The position numbers were made by a program, and so were the translations under genes. From positions 298,363 through 362,362 of the forward strand of contig NZ_PGDQ01000004.1 of assembly GCF_003073135.1 (NCBI RefSeq): a DNA stretch of 64,000 nucleotides. The letters run 5' to 3'. Position 1 is the stretch's first letter; every line of letters starts with the position of its first letter. Below, one piece after another: positions 56,704 to 64,000 of the stretch. Below the pieces are notes generated by a model. That model made no database searches. It worked only from the letters and a program-made list of their open reading frames with translations, and was not told where the DNA came from. Source of the stretch: Euzebya rosea (GTDB lineage: Bacteria; Actinomycetota; Nitriliruptoria; Euzebyales; Euzebyaceae).

Positions 56704-56769
56704 CCCGCGATCCGGCCCGAGCTGATCCGGCCCGAGCTGATCCGGCCCGAGCTGATCCGGCGGGTCAGC
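56699..56769. other. Long-loop inverted repeat between convergent genes
   Basis: 10-bp arms GCTGACCCGC (56699-56708) and GCGGGTCAGC (56760-56769) contain the stop codons of the VOC gene (+) and the DUF937 gene (-). The loop is exactly the 15-bp tandem repeat. Confidence 0.5.
56709..56760. repeat. 15-bp tandem repeat, about 3.5 copies
   Basis: GATCCGGCCCGAGCT at 56709, 56724 and 56739, then GATCCGG at 56754. The copies are identical. Non-coding, between convergent gene ends. Confidence 0.95.
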
Positions 56770-57677: not shown

Positions 57678-57863
57678 CTACCAGCCGCGGTCGCGCCACT
57701 CCTGCAGGTGCGGTCGCTCGGTGCCCAGGGTCGTGTCGTCGCCGTGGCCCGGGTGGACCCACACCGCGTCGTCCAGCACGAACAGCTTGCCCTCCAGCGA
57801 GTCCATGATCCGTCCGAACGCCTCGCTGCTGCCGAAGGTGTTGCCCGGGCCACCCGGGAATGC
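57678..57863 (-). pseudogene. C-terminal fragment of an MBL-fold metallo-hydrolase, cut by the integrated element
   Basis: Reading minus from 57863 gives FPGGPGNTFGSSEAFGRIMD, SLEGKLFVLDDAVWVHPGHG, DDTTLGTERPHLQEWRDRGW and a stop. This is the C-terminus of glyoxalase-II-like MBL hydrolases, with the VHPGHG metal-binding motif. Upstream of FPGGPGNT the frame stays open but the sequence no longer resembles the family, and the serine recombinase begins 62 bases beyond. About three quarters of the gene is missing from this window. The fragment has no start codon, so it is not predicted as an ORF by itself. Confidence 0.85.
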
Positions 57864-57925
57864 GGGGGGAAATTCCCTCCCTAGAAGTGCTATCTTGAGA
57901 CCATGAGAGCAGGTTGGGTACGGTC

Positions 57926-59449
57926 ATGAAAGCGGGTCTCTACGCCCGCATCTCCCAGGACGAGCACGGCACCGAGAAGGGGGTGCAGCGTCAGCTCGAA
58001 GACGCCCGTGCCCTCGCTGAAGCGCGTGGCTGGGAGGTGGTGGGGGAGTGGGCGGACAACGACGTCAGCGCCTACTCCGGAGCGAGACGGCCTGGCTACC
58101 AGGCACTCATGGACTCAGCGGCCGCGGGAGAGTTCGACCGGATCGTGGTCTACATGACCTCCCGGCTGTGGCGGTCACGTCGGGAGCGAGCCGAGGCGAT
58201 GGACCTGCTCGCGGACCGGCGGATCTCCGTGGCGGCGGTGTCGGGTCCCGAGCTGGAGCTGGCCAGCGCCTCGGGCCGGATGGTGGCGGGCATCCTGGGC
58301 GAGTTCGACACCGCCGAGTCGGCGATCAAGGGTGAGCGTGTGGCGCGTGCGGCGCTGCAGCGCGCGCAGGAGGGTCGTGCGTCGGGGCCGGTCCTGTACG
58401 GCTGGCGTCGCGAGCCCGTGCTCGACGATGAAGGACGGCAGGTGTCGTTCCGCGATGTCGAGGATGAGGACCAGGCCGATATCGTCCGCGAGTTGGTGGA
58501 CCGCATCATCGCCGGTGAGTCGATGAAGGGGATCGGGGAGGACTTCAACCGACGAGGCGTCCCCGTGCCGTCGGGCCGGGCCGGAGTGAAGTGGCGCGCG
58601 GGGACGGTCCGCAAGCTCGCGCTTCGACCGGCCAACATCGCCAAGCGGGTCCACCATGGGCTCAAGCGGGATCGGCTCGGCCGTCGGGCGCCCCGCCACA
58701 GCGGCCCGTGCGTCGATGCGTGCATCATCGGCGATGCAGCCTGGCCGCCGATCATCGAGCAGGAGCGCCACCGCGAGGTTGTCGCCCTGCTGACCAACAA
58801 GTCGCGCCGCACCACCATCGCCACCAACAACCGGGTGCATCTGCTGACCTACGGCATCGGGCGGTGTGGCATCTGCGGGGCGGACCTGCGGGTCAAGTCG
58901 TGGCGCTACCACCGCAAGCGGACCGGCCAGACAGTGCAGCGGACGCTCTACACCTGCGAGGCCAAGGGCTGCACCAGCCGCGACGAGCCATCGGTCGACG
59001 ATCTGATAGGGCAGGTCGTCGTCGCCCGCTTGGGTGCGCCGGATGCGGCCCTGCCTGACCTGACGGCCGCCGGTCGGCGAACAGGTGCGGACGACCACCG
59101 GCGGATCGCCGAGGATTTGCGCCGCCGGCTCGACGCTGCCGCCGTCGACTACGCCGACGGCCTCATCGATCGGTTGCAGCTCCGTGAGATCTCCGCTCGG
59201 CTGCGGCCGCGACTCGAGAACGCCGAGCGCAAGGCGACCCGCACCTACGCGACACCCGATCCGAAGCCGCTGCGCGACCTGCTGACGAGTGCCAGCATCC
59301 AGACGGCTTGGGCACAGCTTGACGTGCGCGGGCGGCGGCGGGTGCTCGAGGTCCTTAACCTCTCGGTGTCGCTCATGCCGACCCGGCAGGGCCCCGGCTT
59401 CGAGCCGACCGACGTCGTGATCGAGTGGGCTCCCTCCAGCCACGACTAG
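57926..59449 (+). CDS. Large serine recombinase (integrase)
   Basis: 507 residues. The resolvase domain (1-140) begins with the nucleophile Ser in AGLYARISQDEHGTEKG and has MTSRLWRSRRERAEAMD and GRMVAGILGEFDTAESAIKG. The recombinase domain (~150-270) is followed by a zinc ribbon, CGICGADLRVKSWRYHRK through LYTCEAKGC, and a coiled coil. It should catalyse site-specific integration and excision at attB/attP. The start at 57926 (MKAGLYARIS) is preferred over a TTG four codons earlier; TATCTT at 57891-57896 may be the -10. It faces away from the truncated MBL gene. Confidence 0.93.
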   Translation: MKAGLYARISQDEHGTEKGVQRQLEDARALAEARGWEVVGEWADNDVSAYSGARRPGYQALMDSAAAGEFDRIVVYMTSRLWRSRRERAEAMDLLADRRISVAAVSGPELELASASGRMVAGILGEFDTAESAIKGERVARAALQRAQEGRASGPVLYGWRREPVLDDEGRQVSFRDVEDEDQADIVRELVDRIIAGESMKGIGEDFNRRGVPVPSGRAGVKWRAGTVRKLALRPANIAKRVHHGLKRDRLGRRAPRHSGPCVDACIIGDAAWPPIIEQERHREVVALLTNKSRRTTIATNNRVHLLTYGIGRCGICGADLRVKSWRYHRKRTGQTVQRTLYTCEAKGCTSRDEPSVDDLIGQVVVARLGAPDAALPDLTAAGRRTGADDHRRIAEDLRRRLDAAAVDYADGLIDRLQLREISARLRPRLENAERKATRTYATPDPKPLRDLLTSASIQTAWAQLDVRGRRRVLEVLNLSVSLMPTRQGPGFEPTDVVIEWAPSSHD

Positions 59450-60050
59450 GGCTGAGTTTCTCAGGGGAGCGCCCGGGTACGGACCGGGGGTGGATCGACG
59501 TCCTCCTCCTGGCGCTGTTGCCGGCCGCCGGCAACATCACGGGTGGCCTCGTCGCCGAGATCACCCCCCGTCGGACCGTTGGCGCAACCGGGCCTTGCAC
59601 GCCGCGGCCGGTGTGGTCTTCGCCGTCGTAGCCGTGGAAATCATGCCGAGAGCCGTCGATGTCGTGGCCGGGTGGCTGCTCGCCCTCGCGTTCCTTGGCG
59701 GTGGCGGCCTCTACCTGCTGGCGCAGCGACTCATCCAGGCCCGCGCGAAGGGCTCCGGGCGGATGTGGATGATCTACCTGGCCATCGCGTCCGATCTGTT
59801 CAGCGACGGGCTTCCCATCGGGGCTGGTGCGTCGCTGGGCGGCGGGCTCGGGTTGGTGCTCGCGGTCGGTCAGGTGCTGGCCGACGTGCCCGAGGGGGCG
59901 GCGTCGACGATGACCTTCCGGGGCAACGATGTCCCACGATCCCGACGCCTGTTGCTGTCGGTGGCAACGGTTGTGCCGGTGTTGGTCGGGGCGGCGCTGT
60001 CGTTCCTGGTCCTGCGTGGACGTCCGGAGCGGTGGCAGCTGACTGCGCTG
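59425..60050 (+). pseudogene. ZIP-family metal transporter remnant, frameshifted and truncated
   Basis: Frame one reads WIDVLLLALLPAAGNITGGL and VAEITP; the match then continues one frame over as SDRWRNRALHAAAGVVFAVV, AVEIMPRAVDVVAGW and SDGLPIGAGASLGGGLGLVL, with GQVLADVPEGAASTMTFRGN. These are ZIP helices, with D-G-x-P-I-G and the VPEG metal-binding positions. The switch lies in a run of six C (59564-59569); one more C would restore the frame. The last helices are absent because the frame runs on into M23 sequence. N-terminal start unclear and overlapping the recombinase end. Confidence 0.65.
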
Positions 60051-60568
60051 GTCCGCCGCGTGGCTGCCGAGCAGGCGGCCGTCCGTGCGGCGCTGGCGGC
60101 AGCGGATCAGGCAGCTGAGCCGCAACTCATCGGTCGCCAGGCGGTGGTGGCCGGGGGACAGGAGGCCTGGCCCCCGGTCATGGCGTGCCCCCTCGGACCG
60201 CCGAACGGCTTCTCGTCATCGTGGGGCGCGCCACGATCCGGCGGTCGCAGCCACGAAGGGGTGGACATGTTCGCGGCCCGGGGGACCCCGTGGTGGCGGC
60301 CGGCGCCGGCACCGTCCGAGTCGGACGCAACGGCTCGGGCGGATTGACGGTCAACCTGCATGACGTGGCGGGCAACCGGTACTACTACGCCCACCTCGAC
60401 AGCGTCGGCGTGCTGGACGGGCAAGCGGTCGAGGCGGGTCAGATCCTCGGTGGTGCAGGTACGTCCGGAAACGCCGCAGGTACGCCGCCGCACCTCCACT
60501 GGCAGGTCCACCCCGGTGGCGGCGGACCGGTCGATCCGTTCCCGCTCCCCAACGCGCTCTGCAGGTGA
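60051..60568 (+). pseudogene. M23-family peptidase remnant, frameshifted
   Basis: A helical lead-in (VAAEQAAVRAALAAADQAAE) is followed by SWGAPRSGGRSHEGVDMFAA RGTP, then in the next frame VVAAGAGTVRVGRNGSGG, GNRYYYAHLDSVGVLDGQAV and PPHLHWQVHPGGGGPVDPFP. HxxxD and HLH zinc ligands are present. M23 enzymes cut peptidoglycan cross-links. The frame switch is at four C (60286-60289); a fifth C repairs it. The lead-in is in frame with the ZIP remnant, so the two form one chimeric open frame. Confidence 0.7.
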
Positions 60569-60782
60569 CGGGCAGGACGGTCGTGCCGGCGTCGCGACTG
60601 GATGGTCGGCAGTGATCGGCCCCCAGGTTGTCGTGCGGACACTATCAGGGCTGCAGGCCCCGTCAGGCACTGACCAACACGGTCGAGCTGCGGTGGCCAC
60701 CCACGCCTGACATGAGCAGCGGCGACACCCCCGTGGTCGTGGTCGACACCGCTCTCCCGGCGCTCGTGTGGACTGCCGACGA

Positions 60783-61559
60783 TCAGATCGGGGGCCAGCC
60801 AAACCGGCTGAACAGGCTGGTGAGGGGAGCGAAGAAGCGAAGCCACTGATTCGTGAGGAGCAGGATGCCCATGGTCACCATGACGGCGGCGCCGGCCAAC
60901 TCCACCGCTCTGGCGTGTCGACGGAGCCAGGTAACGATGGGGTCGAGCTGTGAGGCTGCGACGGCGAGACCGATGAAGGGCAGCCCCAACCCGGCCGAGT
61001 AGACGGCCAGCAGCGCCGCCCCTTGCCCGACGGAGCCGTTGCTGGCGGCCAGGGTGAGGATGCCGGCCAGCACCGGGCCAATGCACGGCACCCATCCGAT
61101 CGCGAAGGCCATCCCCAAGGGAACCGCTCCGGCAGGGCCGGGCCGGACCCGCGACAGGTCGAACCGGTACTCCCGCATGAGCACCGGCACGCGCACCACA
61201 CCGGCCAGCACCAGCCCCATGACGATGATGACGACACCGCCCACTTGTGAGAGCACGATGCGGTTGGTGAGCAGCACGGTGCTCATCGCCGACGCGCCCG
61301 CGCCGAGGGCGGTGAAGACCACACCGAAACCGGTGACGAACAGCAGAGCGCTGGACAGCGCACGGGGCCGAGCTGTCCGCCGTTGCACCACCGTTGCGGT
61401 CGAGGCTGCGGTGGTGGCCCGTCCTGAACGATCCGGGGCGTCCTGGCCGGTGCTGCTGATGTAGGCCACGTAGCCCGGCATCAGCGGCAGGCAGCACGGC
61501 GAGGTGAAGGACAGCACTCCGGCCGCGAACGAAAGTCCAGCCATCGTCATCAGCTCCAT
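60783..61559 (-). CDS. CcdA/DsbD-family membrane thiol transporter
   Basis: 258 residues, six hydrophobic segments. The redox Cys pair is C22 or C23 in TSPCCLPLMPGY and C159 in GWVPCIGPVLAG. It moves reducing power from cytoplasmic thioredoxin to extracytoplasmic proteins. Follows GGAAGG. Its promoter region carries a dyad (61600-61619), and the M56 gene is upstream on the same strand (76-bp gap). CcdA relatives commonly accompany heavy-metal or copper resistance modules. Confidence 0.88.
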   Translation of the reverse strand: MELMTMAGLSFAAGVLSFTSPCCLPLMPGYVAYISSTGQDAPDRSGRATTAASTATVVQRRTARPRALSSALLFVTGFGVVFTALGAGASAMSTVLLTNRIVLSQVGGVVIIVMGLVLAGVVRVPVLMREYRFDLSRVRPGPAGAVPLGMAFAIGWVPCIGPVLAGILTLAASNGSVGQGAALLAVYSAGLGLPFIGLAVAASQLDPIVTWLRRHARAVELAGAAVMVTMGILLLTNQWLRFFAPLTSLFSRFGWPPI

Positions 61560-61599
61560 GCTGGGTCCTTCCGCGCCTCATTCCGCAACGTCCCTTGTC

Positions 61600-61619
61600 T
61601 GCTACGTCCAGTAGTAGCA
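61600..61619. promoter_or_regulatory. Candidate BlaI-type operator upstream of the CcdA gene
   Basis: TGCTAC at 61600-61605 and GTAGCA at 61614-61619 form a dyad; the inner part CTACGTCCAGTAG is also symmetric. It resembles the ACTACA/TGTAGT sites near the blaI start, but the assignment is inference. Confidence 0.4.
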
Positions 61620-61635
61620 TGTTGGGCTGCTGGAT

Positions 61636-62583
61636 CTACAGCGAGCAGAAGTTCGGTTCGAGGAGGAGGACGGCATCTGCGGCATCCACCGCCCCGAGGA
61701 CCAGCATCGCGGCCATGAGCGTCGTGGCCGCGCCCAGGATGGCGCGGTCGCGCCAGGATGCGGTGGGGCTGGGCGCAACCAGACGCTGCACCCGCCAGAC
61801 CGCATCGCCGGACGCCCCCAATCCGTGTCCGGGCCTGGCCGCGAGGGCGACCTGACCCAGGGTCACGCCGACGAGTCGGGGGCCGTGTCGGCGCACCGCC
61901 GCATCATCGGCCAGCGCCTCGAGGTGCCGCCCGATGCAGTCGCTGGCGTGACGGACGAACGGCAGCGGTGCGAGCCCTGCGCCCAGAAACTGTGTGACGG
62001 CATCCAACAGGCCGTGCCGACCGCGCTGGTGGGACTGTTCGTGCGCCAGGACGACGCTGCGCTCAGTGGCGTCGGCGTCGGCCCAGAACACGGCGTCGAC
62101 CGCGACCACGGGGCGGAGCAGTCCCACGGTGACCGCCGGTGTCCCAAGATCATCGACGACGGCGACCCGCCTCGGCCGATGGGTGGCCCCGACAACATCC
62201 GCCGTCACCGCCGTCACCGCTGGGGCCGTGCGGACACGCCGGAGGAGCCGGCGCGAGCCGATGAGGTCCTTCGCAACGCACCACAGGCCCCGGCCGGGCA
62301 GCAGCACGACCCAGGCGAGCAGCAGCGACGACTGCCACCACCCGAGTCCCCCGGTCAGCAGGTCGCGCAGCACTGTGCCGCAGGCGGCCACAAGGGTGCC
62401 CGCCGGGCCCGCTGCGTCGGCGATGGCCTGTACGACCAGTCCCAGCGAGCCGACCCACACGGCGGCGGTCGAGAGCAGCAGCATCGTGACGGCGGCGCGT
62501 GGTGCCCGTGCCTCGAGGTCACGGCAGGGCCGCCAGGCAAGCATTGTCAGGCCCATGGCCGTGAGCATGGCCGCGTGGATCAC
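61636..62583 (-). CDS. M56-family membrane metallopeptidase, BlaR1-like
   Basis: 315 residues. Three or four hydrophobic segments, the zinc motif HEQSH at 181-185 in VLAHEQSHQRGRHGLLDA, and a more distal Glu in LEALADDAAVRRHG. M56 peptidases are activated by a signal and cleave or release their partner BlaI repressor. The usual large sensor domain of BlaR1 is absent, so the signal must be sensed otherwise. GTG start overlapping the blaI stop by 4 bp. Confidence 0.85.
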   Translation of the reverse strand: MIHAAMLTAMGLTMLAWRPCRDLEARAPRAAVTMLLLSTAAVWVGSLGLVVQAIADAAGPAGTLVAACGTVLRDLLTGGLGWWQSSLLLAWVVLLPGRGLWCVAKDLIGSRRLLRRVRTAPAVTAVTADVVGATHRPRRVAVVDDLGTPAVTVGLLRPVVAVDAVFWADADATERSVVLAHEQSHQRGRHGLLDAVTQFLGAGLAPLPFVRHASDCIGRHLEALADDAAVRRHGPRLVGVTLGQVALAARPGHGLGASGDAVWRVQRLVAPSPTASWRDRAILGAATTLMAAMLVLGAVDAADAVLLLEPNFCSL

Positions 62584-62972
62584 GCCGATCCCCCGCTTTG
62601 CGGTTCCGGGGCGCCGCCGAGCAGGCGGCGCAGCGCTGCAGCCTCGTCCGGATCGAGATCGGCGACGAAGTGCAGCAGGGCCGCGGTCCGGTTGCCCGCG
62701 ACCGACAGCGCGTCGGCCATCGTGGCGGCCGCGTGAGCCTCACGCGTCGACGACGGCTTGTAGGTCCATGCCCGTCCGGCCCGACGCCGCCGGAGCAACC
62801 CTTTGTCGTGCAGTCGGTTCATGACGGTCATCACCGTGGTGTAGGCGAGATCGTCCTCGAGCCTGGACAGCACGTCACGAACCTGCAGGTACTGACCCGC
62901 GTCGTCCCAAGCCACCCGCATGATCTTGGCCTCGAGCGAACCGAGTTCCGGGGAATCCGCGCCAGCAGCCAT
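62580..62972 (-). CDS. BlaI/MecI/CopY-family repressor
   Basis: 130 residues. Winged-helix N-terminus (ELGSLEAKIMRVAWDDAGQY, then YTTVMTVMNRLHDKGLLRRR, RAGRAWTYKPS) and a helical dimerisation end. It represses its own operon until the M56 partner inactivates it. The ATG at 62972 follows GAGGAGG. The frame continues 10 codons upstream. It is divergent from the BNR-repeat gene, so the shared 115-bp region could regulate both. Confidence 0.9.
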   Translation of the reverse strand: MAAGADSPELGSLEAKIMRVAWDDAGQYLQVRDVLSRLEDDLAYTTVMTVMNRLHDKGLLRRRRAGRAWTYKPSSTREAHAAATMADALSVAGNRTAALLHFVADLDPDEAAALRRLLGGAPEPQSGGSA

Positions 62973-63022
62973 GCACGGGCCTCCTCTCGTACGGGTGAAC
63001 AACAGTGAACGTGGCGTCCCAG

Positions 63023-63060
63023 ACTACAGTGTGAATGTGAACCCTAGGACGTGTAGTACA
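63023..63060. promoter_or_regulatory. Candidate BlaI operator sites in the divergent promoter
   Basis: ACTACA at 63023-63028 is inverted as TGTAGT in the palindrome GTGTAGTAC (63051-63059). BlaI/MecI/CopY proteins bind TACA/TGTA dyads. The sites lie between the blaI start (62972, minus) and the BNR gene start (63088, plus). Confidence 0.5.
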
Positions 63061-63087
63061 ACCGTCGCTGACCGTCCAGGTCGTTCG

Positions 63088-63816
63088 ATGCGCCGCAGCG
63101 TGATTGGCCTCCTGCTCGGCGCGCTGTACCGCAGCGAGGACCAGGGGGCCTCATGGGATCTGGCTGGCCTGGAAGGACAGGACGCGATGTCGCTGGGGGC
63201 GCAGGATCCTGACGGGCTGCTGTTCGTGGCCGGTCATGAGGTGCTGCAGCGCAGTCGTGATGGCGGTGCCACGTTCGAGCCGCTCGCGCCGCCGGACCTT
63301 CCGTCGCTGGACATCCACGCGTTCGCGCAGTCCGCCAGCGATCCGGAGACGGTGTATGCGTTCGTGGTCGGCTTCGGCGTGTTCGTCAGCACCGACGCGG
63401 GTGAGACGTGGGAGGCCCGGGCCGGGGCCGGCCAGACGGTCGGCGCGGACACCTTCGCGCTGTTGGTCGACCCCGAGGACCCCGACGTGGTCCTGGCGGG
63501 TGGCGGGCAGAGCGGGCTGGCGCGCTCCGCCGATGGCGCCCGGACCTTCACCGTGGTCGACGAGGCGGGCGTGGGCTCGTTGACCGCCGACCCGGATGAC
63601 CCCGATCGGGTGGTCGCCCTGACCAGCGTGGGGGTGCAGGAGAGCATGGACGGCGGGCAGACGTGGTCCATGGTGGGCCCGCCAGACGTCGCTGGACAGC
63701 CGGTGACGATCGCCGCCGGCACCCAGGGCCGTATCTGGCTGGTCGCCGAGGAGCCCCGGCAGCTGTACGTGAGCACCGACGGCGGGTCCACGTGGCAGAC
63801 CGCACCGCCGGCCTGA
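63088..63816 (+). CDS. BNR/sialidase-like repeat protein, shortened at the N-terminus
   Basis: 242 residues. Four Asp-box units (RSEDQGASW, STDAGETW, SMDGGQTW, STDGGSTW) form a beta-propeller part like that of F510_1955-type exo-sialidase-like proteins, which occur in actinobacterial metal-resistance islands. The start MRRSVIGLLLG looks like the front of a signal peptide but joins directly to LYRSEDQGASW. The usual ~80-100 residues between are missing. Export is therefore doubtful. Function unknown. Confidence 0.65.
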   Translation: MRRSVIGLLLGALYRSEDQGASWDLAGLEGQDAMSLGAQDPDGLLFVAGHEVLQRSRDGGATFEPLAPPDLPSLDIHAFAQSASDPETVYAFVVGFGVFVSTDAGETWEARAGAGQTVGADTFALLVDPEDPDVVLAGGGQSGLARSADGARTFTVVDEAGVGSLTADPDDPDRVVALTSVGVQESMDGGQTWSMVGPPDVAGQPVTIAAGTQGRIWLVAEEPRQLYVSTDGGSTWQTAPPA

Positions 63817-64000
63817 CCGGCGACGCCGATCCGCCTGTCCGCCGCGCAGCCGGGGCAACGGCGTCGGTCGCCGTCGTGCTGGCCATCGCCGTCGCCGGCG
63901 TGGTGGCCTACCTGACCTCGTCGGCACATGGACTGCACGATCCGGTCCACGCGCTGCAGCAGTTCGACCTGTTCTACCTCGACCAGCCCGCGCCGCTGGC
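63792..64000 (+). CDS. Start of a membrane-anchored hypothetical protein (3' end outside window)
   Basis: A GTG at 63792 opens a frame that runs to the window end, 69 codons: basic-flanked helix VAVVLAIAVAGVVAYLTSSA near residues 26-45, then HGLHDPVHALQQFDLFYLDQ. One membrane segment, N-terminus inside by charge. It overlaps the BNR gene by 25 bases. Not recognised. Confidence 0.5.
   Translation, partial: MADRTAGLTGDADPPVRRAAGATASVAVVLAIAVAGVVAYLTSSAHGLHDPVHALQQFDLFYLDQPAPL

Follow-up and report, generated by a model that had tools for sequence, protein, structure and literature searches.

The window analyzed here is a stretch of 64,000 nucleotides (C4:298363-362362) from the 5.5 Mb, 40-contig genome of Euzebya rosea (G000). 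Near its right end lies an orphan 3' end of an MBL-fold hydrolase gene and, beside it, the gene for a large serine recombinase (LSR) that points outward, with its ATG 65 bp from the edge of the MBL homology (Table 1). The orphan fragment translates to FPGGPGNTFGSSEAFGRIMDSLEGKLFVLDDAVWVHPGHGDDTTLGTERPHLQEWRDRGW followed by a stop codon (60 aa), and we found that its homology to MBL hydrolases starts exactly at the TTC (Phe) codon at 57858-57860, with which FPGG begins, while the codons upstream of FPGG (GDTL, or GDSL/GDCL, in full-length relatives) are missing. Since the fragment matches the same gene in related genomes at 1e-19 to 1e-33, its translation evidently reflects real homology to MBL hydrolases and no chance match. 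The first-pass annotation had described an orphan MBL 3' end beside an outward-pointing recombinase, a break in homology at FPGG, and the recombinase as the first gene of an element. Each of these points is borne out, with coordinates that were essentially right, and the element boundary falls at the left junction with the LSR as the nearest gene. A short tandem repeat of GATCCGGCCCGAGCT-like units is also present between two host genes (window 56718-56763).

Table 1. Features at the left junction and within the part of the element that lies in the window
Feature	Position in window	Strand	Evidence or remark
Displaced native 3' end of host MBL-fold hydrolase gene (60 codons + stop); host half of attL, outside the element	57678..57860	-	Translation
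Predicted crossover dinucleotide, TT on the MBL strand (AA on +), in the TTC Phe codon of FPGG	57859..57860	-	Shared core; centre of attP dyad
Element-side half of attL (left attP arm)	57861..57905		Conserved in G001 and G002 as far as the core; MBL homology begins there
Integrated element, part inside the window	57861..64000		Total about 59.5 kb, on to C4:415760; full MBL gene with element-borne tail
Large serine recombinase, 507 aa from ATG	57926..59449	+	PF00239, PF07508; MBL-targeting clade; TTG start also possible (57914-59449)
M23 peptidase domain, fragment-like (cargo)	60185..60568	+	PF01551, 5.1e-17
DsbD/CcdA-like transmembrane protein (cargo)	60783..61559	-	PF02683, 2.7e-11
M56 peptidase-like protein, BlaR1 type (cargo)	61636..62583	-	PF05569, 2.5e-7, just below its cut-off
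BlaI/Penicillinase_R-type repressor (cargo)	62580..63002	-	PF03965, 1.3e-23
BNR/sortilin-like repeat protein (cargo)	63088..63816	+	PF02012, PF15902; start from gene call

The LSR has the architecture of a large serine recombinase, with a resolvase catalytic domain at its N-terminus (PF00239, 6.8e-25, residues 9-155) followed by a Recombinase domain (PF07508, 6.9e-9) and a zinc ribbon in which Cys313, 316, 343, and 348 are invariant across a three-protein alignment. We infer that this protein carries out the integration reaction; no recombination directionality factor was identified.

At the right junction, 59.5 kb from the left one, we found a complete 219-aa MBL hydrolase gene that adjoins uvrA and lies on the same contig and strand as the orphan tail (C4:415581-416240, minus strand; L005:15581-16240). 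Its host 5' part (C4:415761-416240), the missing piece that the first-pass annotation had suggested looking for to the right of base 64000, runs through GDTL and is followed in frame by a second tail that starts at FPGG and consists of 59 codons (FPGGIGRTTSPEEFDSAYRAVTERLFILDDETWVYPGHGDDTTLGAERPKLDEWRERGW). The earlier view of an interrupted MBL gene is thus overturned, since the host 5' part continues in frame into an element-borne 3' end and the whole encodes an intact hydrolase, for which the closest solved structures are glyoxalase II and other MBL-family hydrolases. GC3 was 0.667 in the element tail, compared to 0.935 in host genes, 0.938 for the MBL 5' part, and 0.951 for the displaced tail. 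By this measure, the host is the source of the displaced tail, and the joined one is foreign.

In addition to the cargo in Table 1, the element encodes a TrwC/MobF relaxase (5.8e-88), CcmF, NADH dehydrogenase subunits, a P-type ATPase, a multicopper oxidase, cytochrome c, and a BTAD regulator, and from this gene content it looks like a mobilizable (MobF) island with cytochrome c biogenesis, complex I, and copper/metal genes. As in an IME, an integrase of its own, attL and attR flanks, and an internal relaxase are all present. A search with a single marker family for the coupling protein, TraG-D_C (PF12696), gave no match inside the element and matches elsewhere in the genome, and no VirB4-like gene was recognised in the element gene list. 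Since TraG-D_C has no match inside it, the element would be better called an IME rather than an ICE. ARAGORN predicted a tRNA-Leu (gag) inside the element (L005:7656-7752), which we left out of the argument because none was predicted in the L085 stretch of the element in G001, the congeneric genome used for comparison.

G001 carries a 66 kb element at the same position, and the identity between the two genomes steps at the FPGG junction on both sides of the element. On the left, host DNA is 84-90% identical, the displaced tail 86.9% (within the host range), and the recombinase 93.5%. On the right, the element end is 98.7-98.9% and the element tail 98.2% identical, and past the junction identity is at once lower, 89.4% for the MBL 5' part and 84-93% for the host DNA beyond. 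The G001 recombinase is split by a 1.4 kb insertion (G001:C1:2826215-2827444, L076) with a 409-aa transposase-like ORF that is IS256-like by eye, so the G001 element may be trapped. In G002, the left end lies on one contig, and the right end lies on another together with the syntenic host flank and a relaxase 64% identical to that of the window element.

The same arrangement was found in G111, which belongs to other Nitriliruptoria, and in IMG/VR contigs, a Nocardiaceae MAG, and Lentzea. The G111 element is 8.7 kb long and has primase/polymerase and helicase genes, and comparison with an uninterrupted relative, as the first-pass annotation had advised, revealed the empty site for this carrier: in its congener G318, the MBL gene directly joins the DNA that follows the displaced tail in G111. 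Most relatives in the class have the MBL gene in one piece with no orphan tail, rather than sharing the arrangement in element-free form, which had been named in advance as counterevidence. Two IMG/VR contigs, G401 (terminase small subunit, primase-like gene) and G402 (portal protein), hold elements of 9.5-10.5 kb with both junctions present, and the phage contig G400, which encodes terminase and portal proteins, starts at the core. The Lentzea element is 29 kb long and carries DISARM genes and a weakly matching relaxase. The recombinases at the Lentzea loci L102/L105 were rejected as members, as the gene fragment beside them is a different one; another recombinase, encoded on the same contig, is the member. 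At the Lentzea DISARM locus (L192:10768-17490; G399 C27:68768-75490), a second serine recombinase lies beside an additional copy, in inverted orientation, of the C-terminal third of the DrmMI methylase, and the locus looks like an invertible cassette that would swap the methylase C-terminus, a form of phase variation.

Across elements, attL and attR share a common core, TTCCCGGGNGG or codon variants of it. attP has an inverted repeat whose centre is the TT of the Phe codon and which is perfect in G111 (TGTTGTCC / GGACAACA); dyad symmetry in attB is ambiguous in the GC-rich background. From the attP dyad and the shared core, we infer that TT is the core dinucleotide. GG had been considered from dyads in one attB, and a scan of multiple sites shifted the core to TT. 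The right attP arm, GGACAACA, is located 19 bases from the first T, lies within the replacement codons, and is read as R-T-T; elements of the window genus have a GGACCACA variant in this arm that also provides R-T-T codons, and the left arm of the window element is divergent. Full-length MBL genes with no known element mostly have NT, KT, or AT at this position. ACA accounts for 1% of threonine codons in G000 host genes, 0/122 in G111, and 8.5% in Lentzea.

We scanned 396 genomes with the attP pattern TTYCCNGGNGGNNNNGGNNGGACAACA, using the reversed pattern as a control, and obtained seven matches compared to none for the control, with all seven in this MBL gene. An orphan tail lies 0.6-8.7 kb downstream in four of them (G111, G143, G027, and G218) and on a different contig in G197, while in G175 the contig ends too soon to show one. 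G121 has an attP-type tail, and no orphan tail was found within 57 kb of the gene. Acquisition of the G121, G175, and G218 tails by integration is putative. Orphan tails with no recombinase nearby occur in G003, where only a decayed tail is left 0.7 kb from the gene, and in G027, G218, and G422. In G027 (L231, G027:C1:2309817-2314419) and G218 (L232, G218:C1:3992258-3996714), the attP-type gene and the orphan tail are separated by 4.3-4.4 kb with transporter and regulator genes and no recombinase of the MBL-tail clade, and of these two orphan tails only that of G027 keeps the FPGG start. From their contents, both loci are apparently domesticated remnants.

In a tree of 60 recombinases, the MBL tail or its core adjoins 11, all of which fall within a single 12-member clade (SH-aLRT 98) that includes the window LSR, and G143 is the one member with no adjoining MBL tail. 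The core sequence was found beside none of the 48 recombinases outside the clade, and the one tail match outside it, a weak one (L044), proved spurious. The MBL-tail label required two changes on the tree compared to a mean of 10.3 when shuffled, and none of 500 shuffles was as low, although this test is a guide only because several rows of the tree are close relatives.

Together, these findings make it very likely, in our judgment, that the window holds an integrated element of this LSR clade that targets the uvrA-adjacent MBL gene at its FPGG codons and keeps the gene by swapping its C-terminus. The LSR would recombine attP with an attB made up of the FPGG codons of the host gene. The element would carry attP at the point where a full substitute 3' end for this gene (about 59-60 codons) begins, on the side opposite the recombinase. 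Integration would thereby join the host 5' part to the element tail at the right end, as an intact chimeric hydrolase, and leave the native tail at the left end as an orphan beside the recombinase. The right attP arm (GGACAACA or GGACCACA) would double as the R-T-T codons of the replacement tail. The placement of the site in the FPGG(P)G codons by the first-pass annotation therefore stands, while its claim that the gene is broken there does not.

This model requires an unintegrated attP, and we identify it, by its sequence, in free K5 mycobacteriophages (Larva, Kratio, and others), where a divergent MBL tail lies beside the serine integrase with the core TTCCCGGGCGG at its first codon. Two apparent integrated elements (L124 and L127) were set aside, as they are IMG/VR copies of the free phages Larva and Collard. 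Guillsminger gp38 (L207:1361-1492), which is annotated as 'hydrolase' and lies beside a different serine integrase, bears no resemblance to the MBL tail, and its name is likely a transferred annotation. Sequence alone shows the junctions, the foreign origin of the tail, attP in free phages, an empty site in a relative of a different carrier, and a single recombinase clade with this target.

Whether the rebuilt protein matters to the host can be judged from the tails themselves. The tail swap could be real and the chimera non-functional, or its activity irrelevant, so that the tail would persist only to hold the right attP arm. Because the conserved GGACAACA arm lies within the first nine tail codons, part of the tail may indeed be kept for recombination alone, but in all 12 of the element tails examined the reading frame of 59-60 codons stays open as far as the RGW stop and retains the PGHG motif, which lies far outside att, and the G000-G002 element tails show a dN of 0.038 and a dS of 1.44 (dN/dS about 0.03). 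We consider this reading improbable; preservation of the hydrolase is consistent with purifying selection on the tail, and the chimeric hydrolase presumably works. The first-pass annotation took the MBL gene to be interrupted by the element, which would amount to plain disruption of the kind seen with Bxb1 in groEL1. A 3' fragment does lie cut off at the left end, and most serine integrases described to date disrupt ORFs (PMC8092301, PMC9262239). The in-frame fusion to a complete alternative tail refutes disruption unless the chimera is inactive, and the open tails with their low dN/dS argue against it as well, which leaves it very improbable. Also very improbable is that the gene end was merely duplicated locally, with no link to the recombinase, which the closeness of the two copies and the doubled tails with no recombinase between them in G027, G218, and G422 might suggest, but which does not account for the same TTC breakpoint in more than a dozen loci, the tail adjoining the integrase in free phage genomes, its confinement to one recombinase clade, or its foreign composition.

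Beyond the in-frame tail swap itself, a deep LSR clade spanning phages, satellite-like elements, and islands may have specialised phylum-wide on these uvrA-adjacent codons, with an attP arm that overlaps the replacement C-terminus and a tail that may retune the enzyme or, by converting attB to attR, bar further elements. We put this forward tentatively and regard it as doubtful in its full extent. The clade itself offers a range of diverse recombinases whose predicted landing site is conserved across Actinomycetota and preserves the target gene.

Neither LSRs nor integration that spares the target gene is new. In e14 and phage 21 at icd, and in other tyrosine integrase systems, the element supplies an alternative 3' coding end and the host protein is kept. 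Those systems use tyrosine integrases, whereas here a serine recombinase is involved and 59-60 codons are replaced. SCCmec elements, with CcrAB, are serine recombinase systems that integrate at the 3' end of rlmH and leave the gene functional, and Ccr replaces only the last few bases. The window LSR falls outside the Ccr group, scoring 60.4 bits on the CcrB model compared to a cut-off of 900. In M. abscessus, the 3'-end-replacing tyrosine integrase system at attB-8 replaces only the last seven residues (PMC8092301). Large serine integrases of the Bxb1, Bxz2, and MabI type likewise have attB in protein-coding genes with a short common core (PMC9262239, PMC8092301), and Dedrick et al. describe three serine-integrase sites in M. 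abscessus that disrupt ORFs (PMC8092301). The usual description of serine integrases is that they break the coding gene into which they insert, as is reported for Bxb1 and the M. abscessus serine-integrase prophages, and that their attB sites call for experiment on account of the very short shared core. Here the ORF is rebuilt with an element-borne 3' end.

The main texts of open papers yielded nothing on an MBL gene as a serine integrase target, the main text of Durrant et al. 2022 (supplements aside) names no MBL target, and an LSR clade that gives a protein a new tail of about 60 codons, with overlap of attP arm and codons, was not found in open main texts. The first-pass annotation did not recognise the target site from known serine integrases, and no open main text was found to name it, although other LSRs do use it, among them the K5 mycobacteriophage integrases. 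In the K5 phages, the tail is annotated as 'hydrolase', and King et al. recorded it as a 43-residue protein related to hydrolase C termini and left it unexplained (PMC5679794); the main texts of the K5 phage literature were not found to state an integration site or a role for this ORF.

The closest known systems are these K5 integrases (Larva, Kratio, Collard, AlleyCat, and Edugator; genus Kratiovirus), which share with the window LSR the same recombinase clade (SH-aLRT 98) and the same attP anatomy: the TTCCCGGGCGG core, a GGAC(A/C)ACA arm in the same place, and the same divergent MBL tail. They differ in belonging to phages rather than a mobilizable island and in having about 40% protein identity to the window LSR. 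According to Hatfull, serine-integrase attB sites need experimental determination (PMC9262239). In this clade, K5 mycobacteriophages included, attB should be predictable from sequence because the element carries a readable copy of the end of its target gene, and the same reading would explain the 43-residue phage ORF.
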